DNA from: Comamonas sp. B21-038 | GTDB taxonomy: Bacteria > Pseudomonadota > Gammaproteobacteria > Burkholderiales > Burkholderiaceae_C | DNA length: 64,000 nucleotides | Reading direction: 5' to 3' | Assembly (NCBI RefSeq): GCF_022387135.1 | Contig: NZ_CP092462.1 | Coordinates: 4,340,001-4,404,000, forward strand | Shown: positions 21,845-27,986 of the stretch, one piece after another | How the letters are laid out: each line of letters begins with the position of its first letter | Position numbering within the stretch: position 1 is the first letter of the stretch | The notes under the pieces: model-generated | What the model was told of the DNA's origin: nothing | What the model saw: the letters and a program-made list of their open reading frames with translations, nothing else | The model's database searches: none | Made by a program: the position numbers and the translations under genes

Positions 21845-22387
21845 TCAAGCCCGGCCGACCGAATCCGCCCACTGCTGCGCCGTCTGCAGCCGCGCACGCG
21901 GGCCAAAGCTGCTGGTGCTGCTGAGGGTGATGTTGTGGTGCGCAATCACCTGCTGCGGCGTGACGGCGGCATTGCCGCAAGTGGTGTGCGCATCCTCCAG
22001 CAGCACCACCGGGTAGCCATGGCGCAGCGCCGCGCGCGTGGTCACATCCACGCAGTACTCCGTGTGCATGCCGCCAATCACCAGCTCCTGCACGCCCAGG
22101 TTTTGCAGCATGGGCAATAGGTCGGTTTTCCAGAACGCATCGCCGGTGGTTTTGTCCAGGGTCAGGTCGCTGCTCTCCACCTGCAGGCCATCGGCCAGCT
22201 GCCATCCGGGCGTGCCTGCCTCCAGGCCAGGCTCGGCATGGCGCACCCAGATGATGGGGGTGTTGGCCTGGCGTGCGGCGGCGGTGACCTGGTTGATGCG
22301 GGCGATCAGGGCGGGGCAATCCCAGGCGGCGTTGGGGCCGGTGCAGAGGGATTGTTGGATGTCTATTAGGAGGAGGGCAGTGGGCAT
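21845..22387 (-). CDS. isochorismatase-like cysteine hydrolase
   Basis: A 180-residue cytoplasmic hydrolase of the isochorismatase/nicotinamidase superfamily. The triad is Asp in LLIDIQQSL (residue 9), a Lys in the middle (TLDKTTGDAF) and the nucleophilic Cys in GGMHTEYCVDVTTRAA. Substrate class cannot be fixed from sequence; YrdC/YecD-like amidohydrolases are closest in length and motifs. It is the last normal high-GC gene before the lower-GC island. Confidence 0.85.
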   Translation of the reverse strand: MPTALLLIDIQQSLCTGPNAAWDCPALIARINQVTAAARQANTPIIWVRHAEPGLEAGTPGWQLADGLQVESSDLTLDKTTGDAFWKTDLLPMLQNLGVQELVIGGMHTEYCVDVTTRAALRHGYPVVLLEDAHTTCGNAAVTPQQVIAHHNITLSSTSSFGPRARLQTAQQWADSVGRA

Positions 22388-22843
22388 GGGGGCGGAGCTG
22401 TTGCTGGAGGATGTGCAGGATTCTATGGTTCGATATGGGCGTGCATTACGCCGGTTGGTTCAGCTATGTTTTGGTGCTTGATATCTAGTTCCGCAAAGGC
22501 TGTAAGCGGCCTTACGTTCGTAATGCAACGAGCGGCTGCTTTCATCCAGAGCAGACGATCTCCCTGAGAGATCACCAGTTGCGTGAGTCTCTCCTAAATA
22601 CGCGGTGATTCACCAGCCTCTCCCTGTTGACCTCTGGGGAAGTCAACCTCGATGTTTAAGCTGACGGCAACCCAATGCACTGCGACCCACACTCAGACGA
22701 GGAGCACGTCGCCGACCACGTATGATTTTTCTGTTTGCCACGTGCTCGAAATTAGTTACACGATCCGATTCTTCAATATATTTTTATCCAAAACAGGTAA
22801 GTATTTAGTTTCCGTGCAGGACTTCACTGACAATCTTGGCTAT
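22388..22843. other. junction region, no gene seen, small hairpins
   Basis: GC content falls visibly here compared with the left flank. It holds a GTAAG-CGGC-CTTAC hairpin at 22502-22515 and GATCTC-CCTGA-GAGATC at 22557-22573. An open frame from 22652 continues into the toxin gene, but its first 64 residues have no recognisable homology and are AT-rich non-coding in style. I could not find integrase, tRNA or a flanking direct repeat that would mark an attachment site. Confidence 0.4.
22756..22784 (+). promoter_or_regulatory. candidate sigma70 promoter of the toxin-antitoxin pair
   Basis: A -35-like TTACAC at 22756-22761 and a -10-like TATTTT at 22779-22784 are separated by 17 bases in an AT-rich stretch. 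Transcription from here would start about 50 bases before the ATG at 22844, which supports that start over the upstream one. Confidence 0.35.
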
Positions 22844-23176
22844 ATGCCGCTTGAAATTGCGTTTCAGACGAGGGAGTTGCGTGCCACCTGCGAAAGCCAG
22901 ACGAGGGCGAAGCGGGAGCTTGGCGAGCTAGGAAGTAAGGCGCTACAACGGGTGCTGGCCGATATGCAGGCGGCCGAAACCGTCGCCGAACTGTTTGATA
23001 TGGGATTGGTAATTGAGTATTGCACGCAGGAACACGGAGTGCTAAGGTTCCAGCTAGACGGCGAACTAAGCCTGTTTTGCAACGTCAATCAGCAAAGCGC
23101 GCCGATGAATGGTGAAACGATTGATTGGGCCCAAGTTTCTAGACTCAAAGTCGCTCGCATCGGAGGCGGCAAGTGA
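22844..23176 (+). CDS. HigB/RelE-like toxin of a type II toxin-antitoxin pair
   Basis: 110 residues from MPLEIAFQTRELRATCES. The layout fits the HigB-type killer family that precedes HigA: a helical N terminus with LRATC, a middle segment QRVLADMQAAETVAEL, a beta region LRFQLDGELSLFCN, and the C-terminal IDWAQVSRLKVARIG. The expected activity is translation-dependent mRNA cleavage; that is family knowledge, and no catalytic residue can be assigned with certainty. It overlaps the next gene by GTGA, so the pair is translationally coupled. No good ribosome site is visible before the ATG. Confidence 0.65.
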   Translation: MPLEIAFQTRELRATCESQTRAKRELGELGSKALQRVLADMQAAETVAELFDMGLVIEYCTQEHGVLRFQLDGELSLFCNVNQQSAPMNGETIDWAQVSRLKVARIGGGK

Positions 23177-24246
23177 ATGTCTTCGCTGAATTTTACCCTA
23201 CATGGGCGTCACCTCCAGGCGACACTGTTAGAGATCTCGCTCAGCGGAAGGGACTGACACAAGCGGTTGTCGCTAATGCCCTCGGCGTTGCGGAACCCAC
23301 CCTCGCCCGCATGCTCAATGGCGATTTACCTATCACCGAAGCACGAGCTGAGAAACTTTCGGCCTGTGTCGGCGCTACGGCTCGCTTCTGGCTTACGCGT
23401 GAGGCGCAGTACCGCGATGCGTTGCAAGCGATTCAAGATGATGGCCGTGCGTGGGTATCTAGCCTCCCATTCGCGGACATGGCGAAGTTTGGATGGTTGG
23501 ATGCCGCAAACTCTGTCGCAGGAAAACTCCAACAAGCCTTCACCTTTTTCGGGGTGTCGAGCGTTGACGAGTGGCGAGATGCGTGGCTTTCTGAGCACGC
23601 CGGCTTGACGGCGTATAGGACCTCGCCAGTCTTCGCGATGCAAGGCGCGTCTGCGGCTGCTTGGCTTCGACAGGGTGAGCACATTGCGAGCGGCATCAGT
23701 ACCGCGCAATGGTCCCGCACAAACTTTGAACGAATCCTGCCAGAGTTGAAGTCGCTGACGCGGGTGGAGAAGCCCGCGGAGTTCATGCCTCAGCTTCAGC
23801 GTAGGTGCGCTGAGTGTGGGGTAGCCGTTGTCGTTGTCCGAGCTCCTAAAGGCTGCCCGGCAAGCGGCGCAACACGAGTCAAGAATGGTCAAGCCATCCT
23901 ACAACTCAGCGCTCGGTACCTGCGCGACGACAGCTTCTGGTTTACCTTCTTCCATGAAGCTGGGCACCTCGTTCTACACGAGGATCGCCTATTCCTTGAA
24001 TGGTCGGAGAAGCAGCATCTAGACGAGAAGGAAGAGCGGGAAGCCAATGACTTCGCTGGGAAAGCTTTGATTCCGCCAGCGCAAGAGGCTGAACTCCGTG
24101 CGCTTCCTCATGATTACAAGGCTGTCATGAGGTTTGCGCGAGATCTCTCAGTGTCGCCGGGAATCGTGGTCGGGCAACTTCAACACCGAGGCTTGGTGCC
24201 TCGGGAAAAGCTCAATTTTCTGAAGAAACGGTACACCTGGGGCTGA
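23173..24246 (+). CDS. HigA-like antitoxin with XRE helix-turn-helix and ImmA/IrrE metallopeptidase domain
   Basis: 357 residues from a GTG start. Residues about 15-80 are an XRE/HigA-type HTH (RKGLTQAVVANALGVAEPTL, then ITEARAEKLSACVGATARFW). The C-terminal part is an ImmA/IrrE zinc peptidase domain with HEAGH at 261-265 and a downstream EREANDFA segment giving the third ligand. This long form combines DNA binding/antitoxin function with a protease-like module and is known in HigA and phage-repressor-linked proteins. It ends 2 bases before the convergent base-modification-like operon. Confidence 0.8.
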   Translation: MNVFAEFYPTWASPPGDTVRDLAQRKGLTQAVVANALGVAEPTLARMLNGDLPITEARAEKLSACVGATARFWLTREAQYRDALQAIQDDGRAWVSSLPFADMAKFGWLDAANSVAGKLQQAFTFFGVSSVDEWRDAWLSEHAGLTAYRTSPVFAMQGASAAAWLRQGEHIASGISTAQWSRTNFERILPELKSLTRVEKPAEFMPQLQRRCAECGVAVVVVRAPKGCPASGATRVKNGQAILQLSARYLRDDSFWFTFFHEAGHLVLHEDRLFLEWSEKQHLDEKEEREANDFAGKALIPPAQEAELRALPHDYKAVMRFARDLSVSPGIVVGQLQHRGLVPREKLNFLKKRYTWG

Positions 24247-24248
24247 CC

Positions 24249-25172
24249 CTACCCGCGGAAAGGTAGGTACCTTCCGGGACTCTTCTGCCAGTTGCACATG
24301 GCGTCTTCCATGACCTGCATGCCGACGCCCAAGTGCTCCTCTAAGGCGGCAACGCGCGCTTCAAGCGTCTTAGGAGTGGTACGAGAGTCGAATTGTCCGT
24401 CGAATAGCAAGCGTGCCCCTTTCTTTGGACCAGTGGCCGCATTCATGTACGTCGAGTTGGCATCAATCGGGGCGAGGCCAATCTTGCCGAGCATTGTGAG
24501 GTAGTCGAACCGCCCAGTGCGGCCGAAGCTTTTGACCACCTCCATAGAGTCATACAACAGCGCGAATGCCTTTCTGGGGTGGCTATTTACCTGCGCAAGA
24601 GTGTTTGCGATCATCTGGTCGTGTGAGCCGTTTGCTTGGATCCATTCGACATAGGTCCTGATTACGACATTAGTGCCGCGAGCGCCTTGCTTGAGGGATT
24701 CGTACTTGCGGTGATTGCCAAACTTACCCTTGAAGTCAGCCCGGTTGTCCTCAAGCCATTCTCCATAAGCTACTGGGTCCCTGCCGACTCGCTGCCAGGT
24801 CCAAGGCGAGTCCTCGTGGGCGCCGTATAGCTCGCGTGAAAGCAGCCATTCGGTGCGCAGGTTCCGGCCGCAATGAGTGGCGAGGAATACTAGCCAAAAT
24901 GCCTCTTCCCGGTCCCCGTTCGACACCTTAAGCATTGCTGCCTTTATTGGGTCAAACAGGTCACTTTTGGGGTCGGCACGCAGGGGGCTAATGGGCCGGG
25001 CTTTTACCTTATGCACGTACTCCACGCGCTGTAGACTGTCAATGAGTTGACCTACGAAGGCTAGTAGGTTCTCCACTGGGACGATGCCGGTGAGCGGCAT
25101 CCGTTCTCTGTGGAACTCCAATAGCTGCGTTTCGAGGGTCTCTCGGCGCTCGTTCTTCTCGGTGCCTTTCAT
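24249..25172 (-). CDS. protein resembling alpha-glutamyl/putrescinyl thymine pyrophosphorylase clade 3 (AGPT-Pplase3)
   Basis: A 307-residue soluble protein. It resembles the predicted DNA-glycosylase-fold AGPT-Pplase3 family, named from studies of hypermodified DNA bases. Segments I associate with it are FLATHCGRNLRTEWLLSREL (residues 97-115), LYGAHEDSPWTW, GKFGNHRKYESL (149-160) and LTMLGKIGLAPIDANSTYMN (225-243). The assignment is from remembered family resemblance and biochemical function is unproven. It overlaps the thymidylate-synthase-like gene by 4 bases (ATGA), so the two are one operon. Codon use and GC are lower than the flanks, which indicates transfer. The C terminus faces the antitoxin gene with a 2-base gap. 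Confidence 0.6.
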   Translation of the reverse strand: MKGTEKNERRETLETQLLEFHRERMPLTGIVPVENLLAFVGQLIDSLQRVEYVHKVKARPISPLRADPKSDLFDPIKAAMLKVSNGDREEAFWLVFLATHCGRNLRTEWLLSRELYGAHEDSPWTWQRVGRDPVAYGEWLEDNRADFKGKFGNHRKYESLKQGARGTNVVIRTYVEWIQANGSHDQMIANTLAQVNSHPRKAFALLYDSMEVVKSFGRTGRFDYLTMLGKIGLAPIDANSTYMNAATGPKKGARLLFDGQFDSRTTPKTLEARVAALEEHLGVGMQVMEDAMCNWQKSPGRYLPFRG

Positions 25173-26182
25173 CTCACTTCCTTGGTTGAGGTGGCCTGAT
25201 CATCGAAGATCGACAGCTGATCCTTGTCGGAGACAAGTTTTCCGTGCCTCTTAATGTACGTTGAGTACACGTCATCGTGAATCCGCTTCTTCAGACGCCG
25301 TATTTCCGGTTGGTTGTTTGGAACGCGAGCAGCCTTGTGGATTGAAAGCAGGGTGGCCAAATCTTCCCAATATGGATCCATCGTCTCAGGAGGCGTCGGA
25401 ATGGCGCCTAGCCCAGCCCGCACCGTTTTCTCGAAATTGACGAGGCTTTCTACGGATTTCCACGGATCGCCCTTGGGCATTGGCGGCATTGGGCGACGCG
25501 TCTGCCAGCCCTCGCTTAAAAACCGGAGTGCTTTGTCGTGATGCTTATCGTAGAGATGCAAGCTGCCAACAGAGTGCTTGTACTCGCCCAGCTCAATGCC
25601 CACGGACCGGGCAATAAGCTCCTGAATCATGGTGAATGTGAAGACATCGTGTGGCAGGCCGAGCCAAGCGTCGTTGGAACGCATTGACGTCAAGAGGTGC
25701 AGCCGATTGTCACGCACTAGGAATTGAAGCGTACAGGTGCACGGTACATCCTTATGGTGTTCAAGCGTATCGGCGCGGTCAAACAACTGCAAGACTGCTT
25801 GACGGGAGTCTCGTTTCTCCTTCAGCAACTTGATAACGCGAGGGATTTGGTCATTTGGTGTCTTTCCGAACAGGCGTGGCCCGTAGGCACCATAAATGGT
25901 CTGCTTATCGTCAGAAAACTCGTCGTAGCTGGGGATGTAGTGCTGGATAAAGTCCAGTCGATTGCTGCCCGCAAGTATCCAAAGCAGTTCGCCGAGGCAG
26001 CTGAAGAGCAGGCCCCGCGATTCCGATCGGCTGAGGCGGACCCGTGGCGCCGAAAGCTTCAGCAGCATGCCGCTGGTTTCACGAGCCTCGCCCTTAGACG
26101 GTTTTATCGCGGTGCCACGGGCGAGAATTTGTTTGTATACCTTGAATAGCAAATCGTCGAGGGAGTCGGCTGCAAGGTACAT
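25169..26182 (-). CDS. thymidylate-synthase-fold pyrimidine (hydroxy)methylase, possibly dCMP-type
   Basis: A 337-residue TS-superfamily enzyme. The N-terminal region has the family's YGAYGPR segment (97-103) and DQIPRVIKLL. The nucleophilic Cys is probably Cys148 in VPCTCTLQF, and the phosphate/nucleotide segment is RSNDAWLGLPHDV (168-180), with HLY at 209-211. In ordinary TS the LGLPFN Asn selects dUMP. Here the aligned residue is Asp179, the change found in dCMP hydroxymethylases. The protein has a longer C-terminal tail (after about residue 240) that does not look like the canonical TS end. It lies 15 bases after a DUF4031 gene and overlaps the AGPT-Pplase3-like gene. It is probably not the housekeeping ThyA. 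Confidence 0.75.
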   Translation of the reverse strand: MYLAADSLDDLLFKVYKQILARGTAIKPSKGEARETSGMLLKLSAPRVRLSRSESRGLLFSCLGELLWILAGSNRLDFIQHYIPSYDEFSDDKQTIYGAYGPRLFGKTPNDQIPRVIKLLKEKRDSRQAVLQLFDRADTLEHHKDVPCTCTLQFLVRDNRLHLLTSMRSNDAWLGLPHDVFTFTMIQELIARSVGIELGEYKHSVGSLHLYDKHHDKALRFLSEGWQTRRPMPPMPKGDPWKSVESLVNFEKTVRAGLGAIPTPPETMDPYWEDLATLLSIHKAARVPNNQPEIRRLKKRIHDDVYSTYIKRHGKLVSDKDQLSIFDDQATSTKEVR

Positions 26183-26197
26183 GTCGTACTCACTAGG

Positions 26198-26494
26198 TCA
26201 AGCGAACAGACTGAACTGAGTCGGCTCGGTTGCGATGACGCAAGCCGGCAAGGTTGTTTGCAGACCTATTCGCACTGCGTCCCTAGCGGAGATTGCTATG
26301 GCACCGTGTTGAAGCGCGTACCGACGTTGGCTAGCAGTGACATCGTAGTGAGGGTGGCGCGCACCGCGATGGAAGGCGCGCGCGGGAAGACGGATGCTGG
26401 CCGCGAATTCATGCAGCTCGTCAACACTATCCGCCACGAGGTGGAACCACGCATAACCGTGCTTCAGAACCTCTGCATCATCAACATATATCAC
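26198..26494 (-). CDS. DUF4031-like small protein
   Basis: 98 residues, starting at GTG 26494 (MIYVDDAEV) about ten bases after a strong AAGGAG. The pattern fits DUF4031: YVDD, WFHLVADSVDELHEFAASI, the Arg/His stretch HRGARHPHYDV and GAIAIS. The family is common in phages and mobile elements and its function is unknown. It is the first clear gene of the minus-strand operon with the TS-like and AGPT-Pplase3-like genes. Confidence 0.7.
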   Translation of the reverse strand: MIYVDDAEVLKHGYAWFHLVADSVDELHEFAASIRLPARAFHRGARHPHYDVTASQRRYALQHGAIAISARDAVRIGLQTTLPACVIATEPTQFSLFA

Positions 26495-26521
26495 TTACAG
26501 TTCTTACTCCTTGGCCGGAAT

Positions 26522-26659
26522 TTACCACGTGGTGATATTCTCGTCATCAATGGATTTGTCTAGCGCATCTTCTGCTGGGGGGCCGGCGCAGAGCATGCGG
26601 CGTTTGCTGGCTAGCGCGGTGGGGACCAGGCTGGATTCGCGCGGCTTGCCGACGCCCAT
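26522..26659 (-). CDS. possible 45-residue small ORF upstream of the DUF4031 gene
   Basis: The reading frame MGVGKPRESSLVPTALASKR to DDENITTW stop begins at ATG 26657-26659 with GGAG just upstream (spacing is short). It ends 27 bases before the DUF4031 start. It has no recognisable family and could be a leader peptide, a real small protein, or chance. Its 5' half has the GC-rich codon style of the host flank while its 3' end is more AT-rich, so it may span the island junction. Confidence 0.25.
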   Translation of the reverse strand: MGVGKPRESSLVPTALASKRRMLCAGPPAEDALDKSIDDENITTW

Positions 26660-26822
26660 GTCTCCAACGGGTCAACCCTTAGCTATCCCCCACAGCACCC
26701 AGGTCGAAATATAGGAATACGCTGTACCCCGTTCCAGCTATCTGTCGATGCAGCCTCCGTACACAACCTGTGACGCACAGGGCCATCCACCTCCACAGCG
26801 CACAACCAACCGGACACCCCCC

Positions 26823-27986
26823 ATGCAAAGAACCACCGACCCGTCGCTCACCCCCGCCAGCACCACCACCCCCTCGCAGCTGTTCCAGCCCCTCACGCTC
26901 TCCCAGCTCACCCTCCCCAACCGCATCGTCATCGCGCCGATGTGCCAGTACTCGGCGCAAGAGGGCAATGCCAATGACTGGCATTTGATGCACTACGGCA
27001 GCCTGGCGGTATCGGGCGCGGGCATGCTGGTGCTGGAGGCCACGGCGGTGTCGGCGGTGGGGCGCATTACCGATAAGGACCTGGGCATCTACTCCGATGA
27101 CAACCAACAGGCGCTGGGGCGGCTGATGGGGTCGCTGCGCAAGCTCTCGGCGATTCCGGTGGCCATTCAGCTGGCCCATGCGGGCCGCAAGGCCTCCAGC
27201 CATCTGCCTTGGGAAGGCGCTGCGCAGATTGCGCCTGATGCGCCCCGGGGCTGGGTGGCGCAGGCGCCTTCGGCGATTGCCCATGCAGCGGGCGAGGTGC
27301 CGCCGGCTGAGATGAGCCCTGCCGAGCTGGCAGAGGTGAAGGATGCGTTTGTGGCAGCAGCCAAGGCGGCCGATGCGCTGGGCATCGAGGGCATCGAGAT
27401 CCACATGGCCCATGGCTATTTGCTGCACGAGTTCCTCTCGCCCCTGTCCAACACCCGCAGCGATGCCTACGGCGGCAGCCTGGAGAACCGCCTGCGCTAC
27501 CCGCTGGAGGTGTTTGCCGCCGTGCGCGCGGCCGTGCCTGCGGCCAAGCCGGTGTGGGTGCGTATCTCGGCATCGGATTGGGCGCCGGGCGGCTGGGATA
27601 TCGATGGCTCGATCGCGCTGGCCCAGGGGCTGAAGGCACTGGGTTGCAGCGCCATCCATGTGTCATCGGGCGGGCTGTCGACCGCCCAGCAGATCCCCGT
27701 GCAGCCGGGCTACCAGGTGGGTTTTGCCGAGGCCATCAAACAGGCTACGGGCCTGACCACGATTGCCGTCGGTTTGGTGACCGAGCCTGCGCAGGCCGAG
27801 CATATTGTGGCCTCGGGCCAGGCGGATGCCGTGGCCATTGGCCGCGCTGCTTTGTACGACCCGCGCTGGCCCTGGCATGCGGCTGCCAGCCTGGGCGCGC
27901 AGGTGGATGCACCGCGCCAGTACTGGCGCAGCCAGCCGCGTGAGTACAGCAAACTCTTCCGAGGCGCAGCGGTAGGCGTGCGCTAA
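26823..27986 (+). CDS. old yellow enzyme-type NADH:flavin oxidoreductase (YqjM-like)
   Basis: A 387-residue FMN ene-reductase. Family marks are TLPNRIVIAPMCQYSAQEG (the Cys and Tyr of the YqjM subgroup), QLAHAGRKAS, IHMAHGYLLHEFLSPLSN, SDAYGGSLENR, and the C-terminal FMN phosphate site VGLVTEPAQAE to AIGRAALYDPRWP. It reduces activated C=C bonds (enones, nitroalkenes) with NAD(P)H. The start MQRTTDPSLTP is chosen as upstream codons are not conserved in style. A LysR regulator gene follows 48 bases downstream on the same strand. Confidence 0.9.
   Translation: MQRTTDPSLTPASTTTPSQLFQPLTLSQLTLPNRIVIAPMCQYSAQEGNANDWHLMHYGSLAVSGAGMLVLEATAVSAVGRITDKDLGIYSDDNQQALGRLMGSLRKLSAIPVAIQLAHAGRKASSHLPWEGAAQIAPDAPRGWVAQAPSAIAHAAGEVPPAEMSPAELAEVKDAFVAAAKAADALGIEGIEIHMAHGYLLHEFLSPLSNTRSDAYGGSLENRLRYPLEVFAAVRAAVPAAKPVWVRISASDWAPGGWDIDGSIALAQGLKALGCSAIHVSSGGLSTAQQIPVQPGYQVGFAEAIKQATGLTTIAVGLVTEPAQAEHIVASGQADAVAIGRAALYDPRWPWHAAASLGAQVDAPRQYWRSQPREYSKLFRGAAVGVR

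Follow-up and report, generated by a model that had tools for sequence, protein, structure and literature searches.

Phages protect their own DNA with hydroxymethylcytosine and with hypermodified thymine. In the phage thymidine hypermodification pathway, a dUMP (deoxyuridine monophosphate) hydroxymethylase is combined with a 5-hydroxymethyldeoxyuridine (5-hmdU) DNA kinase and a protein of the amino acid:DNA transferase (ADDT)/aGPT-Pplase kind. Hydroxymethylases of the thymidylate synthase (TS) type serve phages in DNA modification (PMC5175136; here and below, statements about cited papers hold for the parts of their text available to us). Among bacterial systems, PD-lambda-2 consists of a HigB-like gene, a gene for an Xre-peptidase and a third gene, and defends E. 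coli against lambda; the Xre-peptidase (B) is toxic alone and is neutralized by its HigB-like partner (A) (PMC9519451). The DefensePredictor study places thymidylate synthase among newly validated defense domains and aGPT-Pplase among predicted, unvalidated ones (Fig. 6F, with helix-turn-helix (HTH) and uracil-DNA glycosylase (UDG) among the abbreviations of the legend; PMC13092281). Here we describe a locus that resembles parts of these systems, found in a 64,000-nucleotide stretch of Comamonas sp. B21-038 (contig NZ_CP092462.1, positions 4,340,001 to 4,404,000), hereafter the window. It is a cassette of two convergent arms, one encoding a small protein (open reading frame 1, ORF1) and an HTH-ImmA peptidase, the other a TS-like enzyme and an aGPT-Pplase3 protein, joined in the window by a DUF4031 protein. 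We tentatively favor reading it as a mobile conflict cassette, probably anti-phage, in which the ImmA arm controls the writing of hydroxymethylcytosine for processing by aGPT-Pplase3.

Gene content and conservation of the cassette

The original prediction for this DNA, made from the sequence alone, had singled out the three minus-strand genes as a candidate operon for pyrimidine or DNA-base modification. Their layout, with a 15-base gap between the DUF4031 and TS genes and a 4-base overlap between the TS and aGPT-Pplase3 genes, was confirmed, as were the family assignments, all over their cut-offs (PF13223, E 3.2e-23; PF00303 Thymidylat_synt, E 7.4e-29; PF18746, E 2.1e-97 and 326.3 bits against a cut-off of 25). 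The low GC content noted for the trio was also borne out: the GC fraction was 0.561 over 22844-26494, and each of 517 overlapping sliding segments of equal length, taken from outside 22000-27000, was higher (0.601-0.687). The trio is not the unit, however. Its constant partners, missed in that prediction, are the two plus-strand genes, which overlap by 4 bases and converge on the trio, leaving a 2-base gap to the aGPT-Pplase3 gene. The start of ORF1 was picked from the family alignment; the frame itself is open from 22652.

Features of the cassette, with positions in the window
Feature	Coordinates	Strand	Basis and remarks
ORF1, 110-aa HigB/RelE-like small protein	22844..23176	+	hhalign and family alignment; leads the proposed sensor/regulator arm
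HTH (Xre)-ImmA/IrrE zinc metallopeptidase, 357 aa	23173..24246	+	PF06114, PF13560, PADLOC PD-Lambda-2_B
aGPT-Pplase3/ADDT-family protein, 307 aa	24249..25172	-	PF18746, PF18724
TS-superfamily predicted dCMP 5-hydroxymethylase (MilA-like), 337 aa	25169..26182	-	PF00303; QLSIF near C-terminus
DUF4031 protein, 98 aa, optional member	26198..26494	-	PF13223; C-terminal QFSLF

Searches for relatives of aGPT-Pplase3, by the protein or an alignment of it, covered plasmids, phages, GTDB genome contigs and viral contigs. The genome contigs yielded 203 relatives, of which the best 80 were kept; since these were picked by aGPT-Pplase3 likeness, distant members are undersampled. Profiles built on each of the five window proteins and on a 268-aa protein of locus L001 (L and G numbers are our handles for loci and genomes) were run on mechanically called ORFs of 116 loci, or 112 after removal of four duplicates, with near-identical loci kept in the counts (16 pairs >97%). 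The TS-like and HTH-ImmA genes were each present in 111/112 loci and ORF1 in 109/112, compared with 31/112 for DUF4031 and 34/112 for the 268-aa family. Among the genome loci, all four core genes were found in 80/80 (the best 80 of the 203 relatives). Thus, the co-occurrence outside phages that had been anticipated for the trio held for the TS-like and aGPT-Pplase3 genes and, in 31/112 loci, for DUF4031. The core order is TS, in some loci an accessory gene, aGPT-Pplase3, then HTH-ImmA and ORF1 on the opposite strand, and the arms are convergent in all of the 80 genome loci except L062, where the second arm is inverted and 1,142 bases away. Intergenic gaps are mostly small; the TS gene lies 370-391 bases off in L029, L031 and L032, and the ORF1 match 1,556 bases off in L016. 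The stretches of the loci missing HTH-ImmA or ORF1 (L092, L093, L103) stop at or close to the site where the gene would lie. Likewise, L001 seemed to be without TS as its stretch was cut short, and the idea that a UDG-like gene replaces TS there was wrong; the longer L116 has TS upstream.

The pairwise distances of the four core proteins correlate (rho 0.50-0.67 over 105 loci, with a maximum of 0.13 in 50 label permutations), indicating that the four mostly travel together. In broader draws, PF18746 was detected in 2/100 and, by phylum, 4/398 genomes, which are five distinct genomes, four of them with the cassette. MilA-like TS genes occurred in 5/396 genomes, three of these being the cassettes. 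The unit is a four-gene core of TS-like, aGPT-Pplase3, HTH-ImmA and ORF1 genes, with DUF4031 as an optional member. The aGPT-Pplase3 or TS frames are split in L004, L016, L027 and L030, which suggests decay in some hosts or sequencing errors.

Predicted chemistry and regulation

The best match of the TS-like profile in the PDB was MilA, the cytidine monophosphate (CMP) 5-hydroxymethylase of mildiomycin biosynthesis (E 1.3e-71 over 265 positions, compared to 8e-28 for the best thymidylate synthase), and the alignment does not stop at the end of the TS core but reaches into the C-terminal extension. Of 118 aligned rows, duplicates and fragments included, 115 or more have each of C148, R168, S169, D179, H209 and Y211. 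The catalytic C148 and D179, as well as S169, are each present in 115, the exceptions being gaps or misaligned fragments, and R127 is present in 107 (8 Lys, 3 gaps). D179 occupies the position of the TS Asn, where Asn marks uracil-type and Asp cytosine-type enzymes. The double substitution A176S/K133R switched the preference of MilA from CMP to deoxycytidine monophosphate (dCMP) (PMC5175136), and the window protein has Ser169 and Arg127 at these positions, where MilA has Ala176 and Lys133, and so lacks the MilA ribose signature. Based on the MilA match, D179 and the Ser/Arg pair, we predict that the enzyme is a dCMP 5-hydroxymethylase and not a maker of dTMP or hydroxymethyl-dUMP (hmdUMP). The thymine chemistry of the original prediction is thus not supported, as both the residues and the nearest solved relative point to cytosine and dCMP. 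An ordinary ThyA for thymidylate supply was considered and rejected because the MilA match, together with the cytosine-type Asp, is stronger evidence than the ThyA match. A MilA-like TS gene outside the cassette (L285:4006-6280) adjoins ORFs that by eye resemble deaminases of dCTP and of dCMP, and the group may be another set of genes directed at cytidylates.

The PF18746 match of the aGPT-Pplase3 protein spans residues 38-307 and profile positions 5-279 of 279, and the same region matches PF18724 ADDT (E 7.6e-80). Residues kept at ≥93% over 105 loci include N153 H154 R155 K156 Y157, G217 R218 and D223 as well as a second block, E289 D290 C293 N294 W295 Q296 K297. A profile comparison with 18 HhH-GPD glycosylase proteins found no similarity (hhalign probability 0.25%), leaving the glycosylase fold assigned in the original prediction unconfirmed. 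It is plausible, given the ADDT match, that the protein acts on hydroxymethylpyrimidine in DNA. No DNA kinase family was seen among the matches of the five window proteins. The 268-aa accessory family, which is found outside the window, shows UDG-like motifs by eye only, and hhalign gave 0.4% with a family-4-like and 0.5% with a MUG-like UDG set, leaving a UDG identity unconfirmed.

Proteins that bind the sliding clamp often carry the motif QL[S/D]LF or QxxLF at the C-terminus (PMC12309361, PMC4549789), and the tails of the window TS-like and DUF4031 proteins are similar. A first, narrower pattern, written before the tails were listed and scored in the last 45 residues, matched 22/31 cassette DUF4031s (shuffle mean 0.15) and 12/114 TS rows (0.38); it was absent from 34 accessory, 115 aGPT-Pplase3, 115 HTH-ImmA and 109 ORF1 rows. 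When the pattern was widened to Q[LMIFV]x[LMIF][FL], we counted 28/31 DUF4031s in the last 20 aa (shuffle mean 0.89) and 17/111 TS proteins in the last 30 (0.87), with 0/34 accessory, 0/112 aGPT-Pplase3, 2/109 ORF1 and 9/1,233 unrelated ORFs as controls. The wider pattern also matched 10/111 HTH-ImmA proteins, against 1.9 by shuffle, which we tentatively take as a conserved family segment. A looser pattern, Qxx[LMIF][FL], matched 25/111 TS proteins (shuffle mean 3.7), and a third, very wide one, given no weight, 30/65 TS tails (4.8). All of these counts come from related sequences and hence are not independent. Of seven DUF4031s examined outside the cassette, five (L119, L120, L121, L169, L170) are without the motif, L118 has no clear end and L168 ends in QLNLW. 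By these counts, the tails of most cassette DUF4031s and of a minority of the TS proteins, the window one included, carry a sliding-clamp-like motif, which would make them putative DnaN binders. The gene for the QLNLW-tailed protein (L168, G131:C4:506000-515000) is accompanied by genes for a metallophosphatase and for a MazG/MazG_C protein, and an upstream ORF is TniQ-like by eye; the group may be a further nucleotide system with a clamp tether, carried by a transposon.

For the other arm, window ORF1 had no Pfam match up to E 1, and a Pfam scan of 32 ORF1 members gave single weak matches only (best E 0.0031). Compared by hhalign with 22 PF05015 HigB-like proteins, however, ORF1 reached 64% probability (E 6.5e-5), versus 0.1-0.3% with the unrelated profiles tried. 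In Fusobacterium, a distantly related ORF (tblastn E 7e-4; ORF1 profile 3.2e-14), itself with no Pfam match, is followed by one of 123 aa that matches the HTH-ImmA profile. The window HTH-ImmA protein matched PF06114 (Peptidase_M78, E 3.3e-10), PF13560 (HTH_31, E 5.4e-7) and the PADLOC PD-Lambda-2_B profile (E 1.3e-25). HExxH is kept in 114/115 of the best HTH-ImmA matches, duplicate loci included.

Distribution and genomic company

Carriers belong, by record titles, to several phyla. Plasmid matches were found in 8 records (7 read), including Leptospira and Arthrobacter, and viral contigs contributed 25 loci; among 50,697 phage records there was no aGPT-Pplase3 match at E 1e-5. The absence of phage genes stressed in the original prediction fits the immediate surroundings in the window, where neither phage nor conjugation genes separate the cassette from the gene on either side. 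It does not extend to the family: on a viral contig, a relative with a 91% identical aGPT-Pplase3 adjoins ORFs that by eye resemble terminase subunits. A viral contig of 118,644 bases has the cassette twice, towards the contig ends (L104/L105), and its aGPT-Pplase3 and the one on a Pantoea plasmid (L006) are 99.4% identical; a phage-plasmid, a duplication or redundancy in the assembly could account for this.

In the window, the cassette sits in a slot (22388-26747) between isochorismatase and flavin-oxidoreductase genes. The same-genus relatives G007 and G048 have flanking oxidoreductases that are 95% and 99% identical, with the slot occupied by other ORFs, and aGPT-Pplase3 was not found in either genome. 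The slot also varies in length in further relatives. It is an insertion hotspot, and the cassette is patchily spread and mobile. At least 80% of the E. coli cassette L288 was detected in 226/5,426 complete E. coli genomes, nearly all at ≥99% identity, and the 239 places found are all chromosomal. Of the E. coli copies, L288 was read furthest; after its cassette come a MazG-like gene, remnants of transposases and a run of helicase, methylase and specificity genes of the type I restriction-modification (RM) kind. L289 and L290 have the MazG-like and helicase genes in the same order before their stretches end, and a dGTPase-family gene lies upstream of the cassette in L290. All three of these copies have ORF1, which is not annotated in them.

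We scanned 116 hand-picked neighbor ORFs, mostly at least 200 aa, from L011-L067 (out of 288 listed for L011-L090); within the first 25 of 100 Pfam families, the commonest matches were phage integrase (4) and Mrr_cat (4). Next to the cassette in L012, L015, L018, L019, L061 and L082 lie related ORFs of 231-263 aa. They are probably among the Mrr_cat restriction-endonuclease-like matches and may represent an optional nuclease partner. An annotated restriction endonuclease lies near the cassette in L006. In L065 (a proteobacterial metagenome-assembled genome) and L066 (Burkholderia), the cassette adjoins gyrB-like and dnaN genes, perhaps a recurrent insertion site. These dnaN genes belong to chromosomal-looking dnaN-gyrB stretches, and the idea of a cassette-encoded sliding clamp was rejected.

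Proposed function and comparison with known systems

Under the reading that we tentatively favor, ORF1 and the HTH-ImmA peptidase would form a toxin-antitoxin or sensor unit like PD-lambda-2AB that keeps the system off until an invader disturbs it and releases the enzyme arm. The TS-like enzyme would then make 5-hydroxymethyl-dCMP near the replication fork, where, in the window copy, it and DUF4031 might be held by clamp-binding tails. Hydroxymethylcytosine would enter replicating DNA, and the aGPT-Pplase3/ADDT-family protein would act on it by transfer of an amino acid or similar group or by base processing, leaving invader DNA unusable or marked. This anti-phage reading draws on the complete core in 80/80 genome loci, the correlated distances, the dCMP signature, the ADDT match, the clamp-like tails and the layout shared with PD-lambda-2, together with the patchy distribution, the plasmid and viral copies, the variable slot, the RM and dGTPase neighbors in E. 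coli and the DefensePredictor domains. A conflict or defense role, already suggested in the original prediction, is thus plausible; as a whole, the interpretation given there is partly supported. The fully specified version, bacterial immunity in which a modified base is placed in invader DNA by means of a clamp-tethered, ImmA-released dCMP hydroxymethylase, with the ADDT-family enzyme turning the base into a lethal or processable adduct, we consider rather doubtful.

Several observations weigh against this reading. The clamp motif is limited to a minority of the TS proteins (17/111, or 12/114 with the narrower pattern), and the wider pattern was written after the tails were seen. As the E. 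coli TS is without the motif and no DUF4031 was found in the E. coli copies read, the putative tether would be a trait of part of the family, the window copy included. G329 has a lone divergent aGPT-Pplase3 copy without TS, and G550 and G525 have MilA-like TS genes in other settings without aGPT-Pplase3; the link between the two enzymes is thus not a strict one. The core is without a DNA kinase, polymerase or nuclease, which bears on the route of hydroxymethyl-dCMP into DNA and on the action of aGPT-Pplase3. For the proposed control of the enzyme arm by ORF1 and HTH-ImmA, no sequence common to both outer ends, as expected of a shared operator, stood above shuffles in the window, and in only 3/75 other loci, at least one of low complexity, did such a sequence beat the best of 15 shuffles by ≥2. 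Finally, the neighbor scan gives no ground to claim an enrichment of defense genes, with no PADLOC family among the first 25 of 166 matching more than 2/116 ORFs.

ImmA/HTH regulators control mobile elements, and the cassette could instead be anti-restriction or self-modification cargo that hypermodifies cytosines of its own plasmid, prophage or host to evade restriction, with the ImmA-type switch acting when the element moves. The 8 plasmid records, the 25 viral-contig loci, one of them beside the terminase-like ORFs, and the use of TS-type hydroxymethylases by phages for their DNA (PMC5175136) are consistent with such cargo. We nevertheless think it unlikely: all 239 E. coli places are chromosomal, RM genes adjoin the one copy whose stretch shows them, the two flanking genes in the window enclose no phage or conjugation gene, the cassette has neither polymerase nor DNA kinase, and the phage records gave no aGPT-Pplase3 match. 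Similarly doubtful is an attack on nucleotide pools, in which the TS-like enzyme would drain dCMP/dCTP (and folate) and aGPT-Pplase3 would hydrolyze or trap nucleotides, starving the phage with no base written. Nucleotide-depletion defenses do exist, and the dGTPase-family gene beside one E. coli copy, the MazG-like gene beside each of the three read and the deaminase-like ORFs next to the MilA-like TS of L285 would suit such an attack, but an enzyme acting on pools would gain little from a clamp-binding tail, and aGPT-Pplase3 is related to the DNA-acting ADDT family.

The pairing of HigB-like and HTH-ImmA proteins, and the toxicity of PD-lambda-2B alone with neutralization by A (PMC9519451), raise the simpler explanation of a plain addiction or toxin-antitoxin module, in which the metabolism of the TS-aGPT pair, toxic or protective, only stabilizes the element. 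Two enzymes whose active-site or family residues are conserved in almost all copies, in a four-gene layout that hardly varies, exceed what an addiction module would require, making this explanation improbable. A small-molecule pathway to a hydroxymethylcytosine nucleoside, like mildiomycin or bacimethrin, is suggested by MilA being the closest solved relative; it appears very improbable given that the deoxy-type Ser/Arg signature replaces the Ala/Lys of MilA and that DUF4031 and the 268-aa family are the only further cassette genes profiled (a MilB-type glycosidase was not searched for).

The cassette gives a concrete context to aGPT-Pplase3 and DUF4031, and the near-identical E. coli copies open it to direct work in E. 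coli with standard laboratory phages. In the literature available to us, we found no account of the four-gene unit, of the clamp tails or of the dCMP signature, though older papers on nucleotide conflicts may contain one. The available DefensePredictor text, compared as text only, is without the clamp motif, dCMP specificity and convergent layout; its figure or supplements may already show this cassette (PMC13092281). Compared with PD-lambda-2, the cassette likewise has a small HigB-like gene overlapping the next, HTH-ImmA gene, whose product matches PD-Lambda-2_B. A PD-lambda-2 copy (L165) has a B match of E 3.9e-184, a first gene of the HigB_toxin type (PF09907, 23.8 bits, cut-off 27) and a Beta_protein gene, whereas window ORF1 has no PF09907 match, no window protein scanned matched Beta_protein and the convergent TS-aGPT3 operon replaces the third gene. 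Since ORF1 belongs to another family and the third gene is absent, we do not class the cassette as PD-lambda-2.

For the enzyme arm, MilA shares the Asp position and differs at the Ser169/Arg127 pair. By description, the T4 dCMP hydroxymethylase is nearer in this respect, having Ser and Arg at both positions and the specificity for dCMP that we predict (PMC5175136), but the cassette enzyme has a C-terminal extension and is encoded in bacteria with ImmA and aGPT-Pplase3 rather than with glucosyltransferases. With phage thymidine hypermodification, the cassette has in common an aGPT-Pplase/ADDT-family protein and a source of hydroxymethylpyrimidine (PMC11955845); it differs in its cytosine-type TS (Asp, not Asn), in having no DNA kinase, in being bacterial and in its toxin-antitoxin-like arm. 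If our reading is correct, the hydroxymethylation chemistry of phages would be turned round, with bacteria modifying the DNA of the invader, the reverse of phages escaping by modification.

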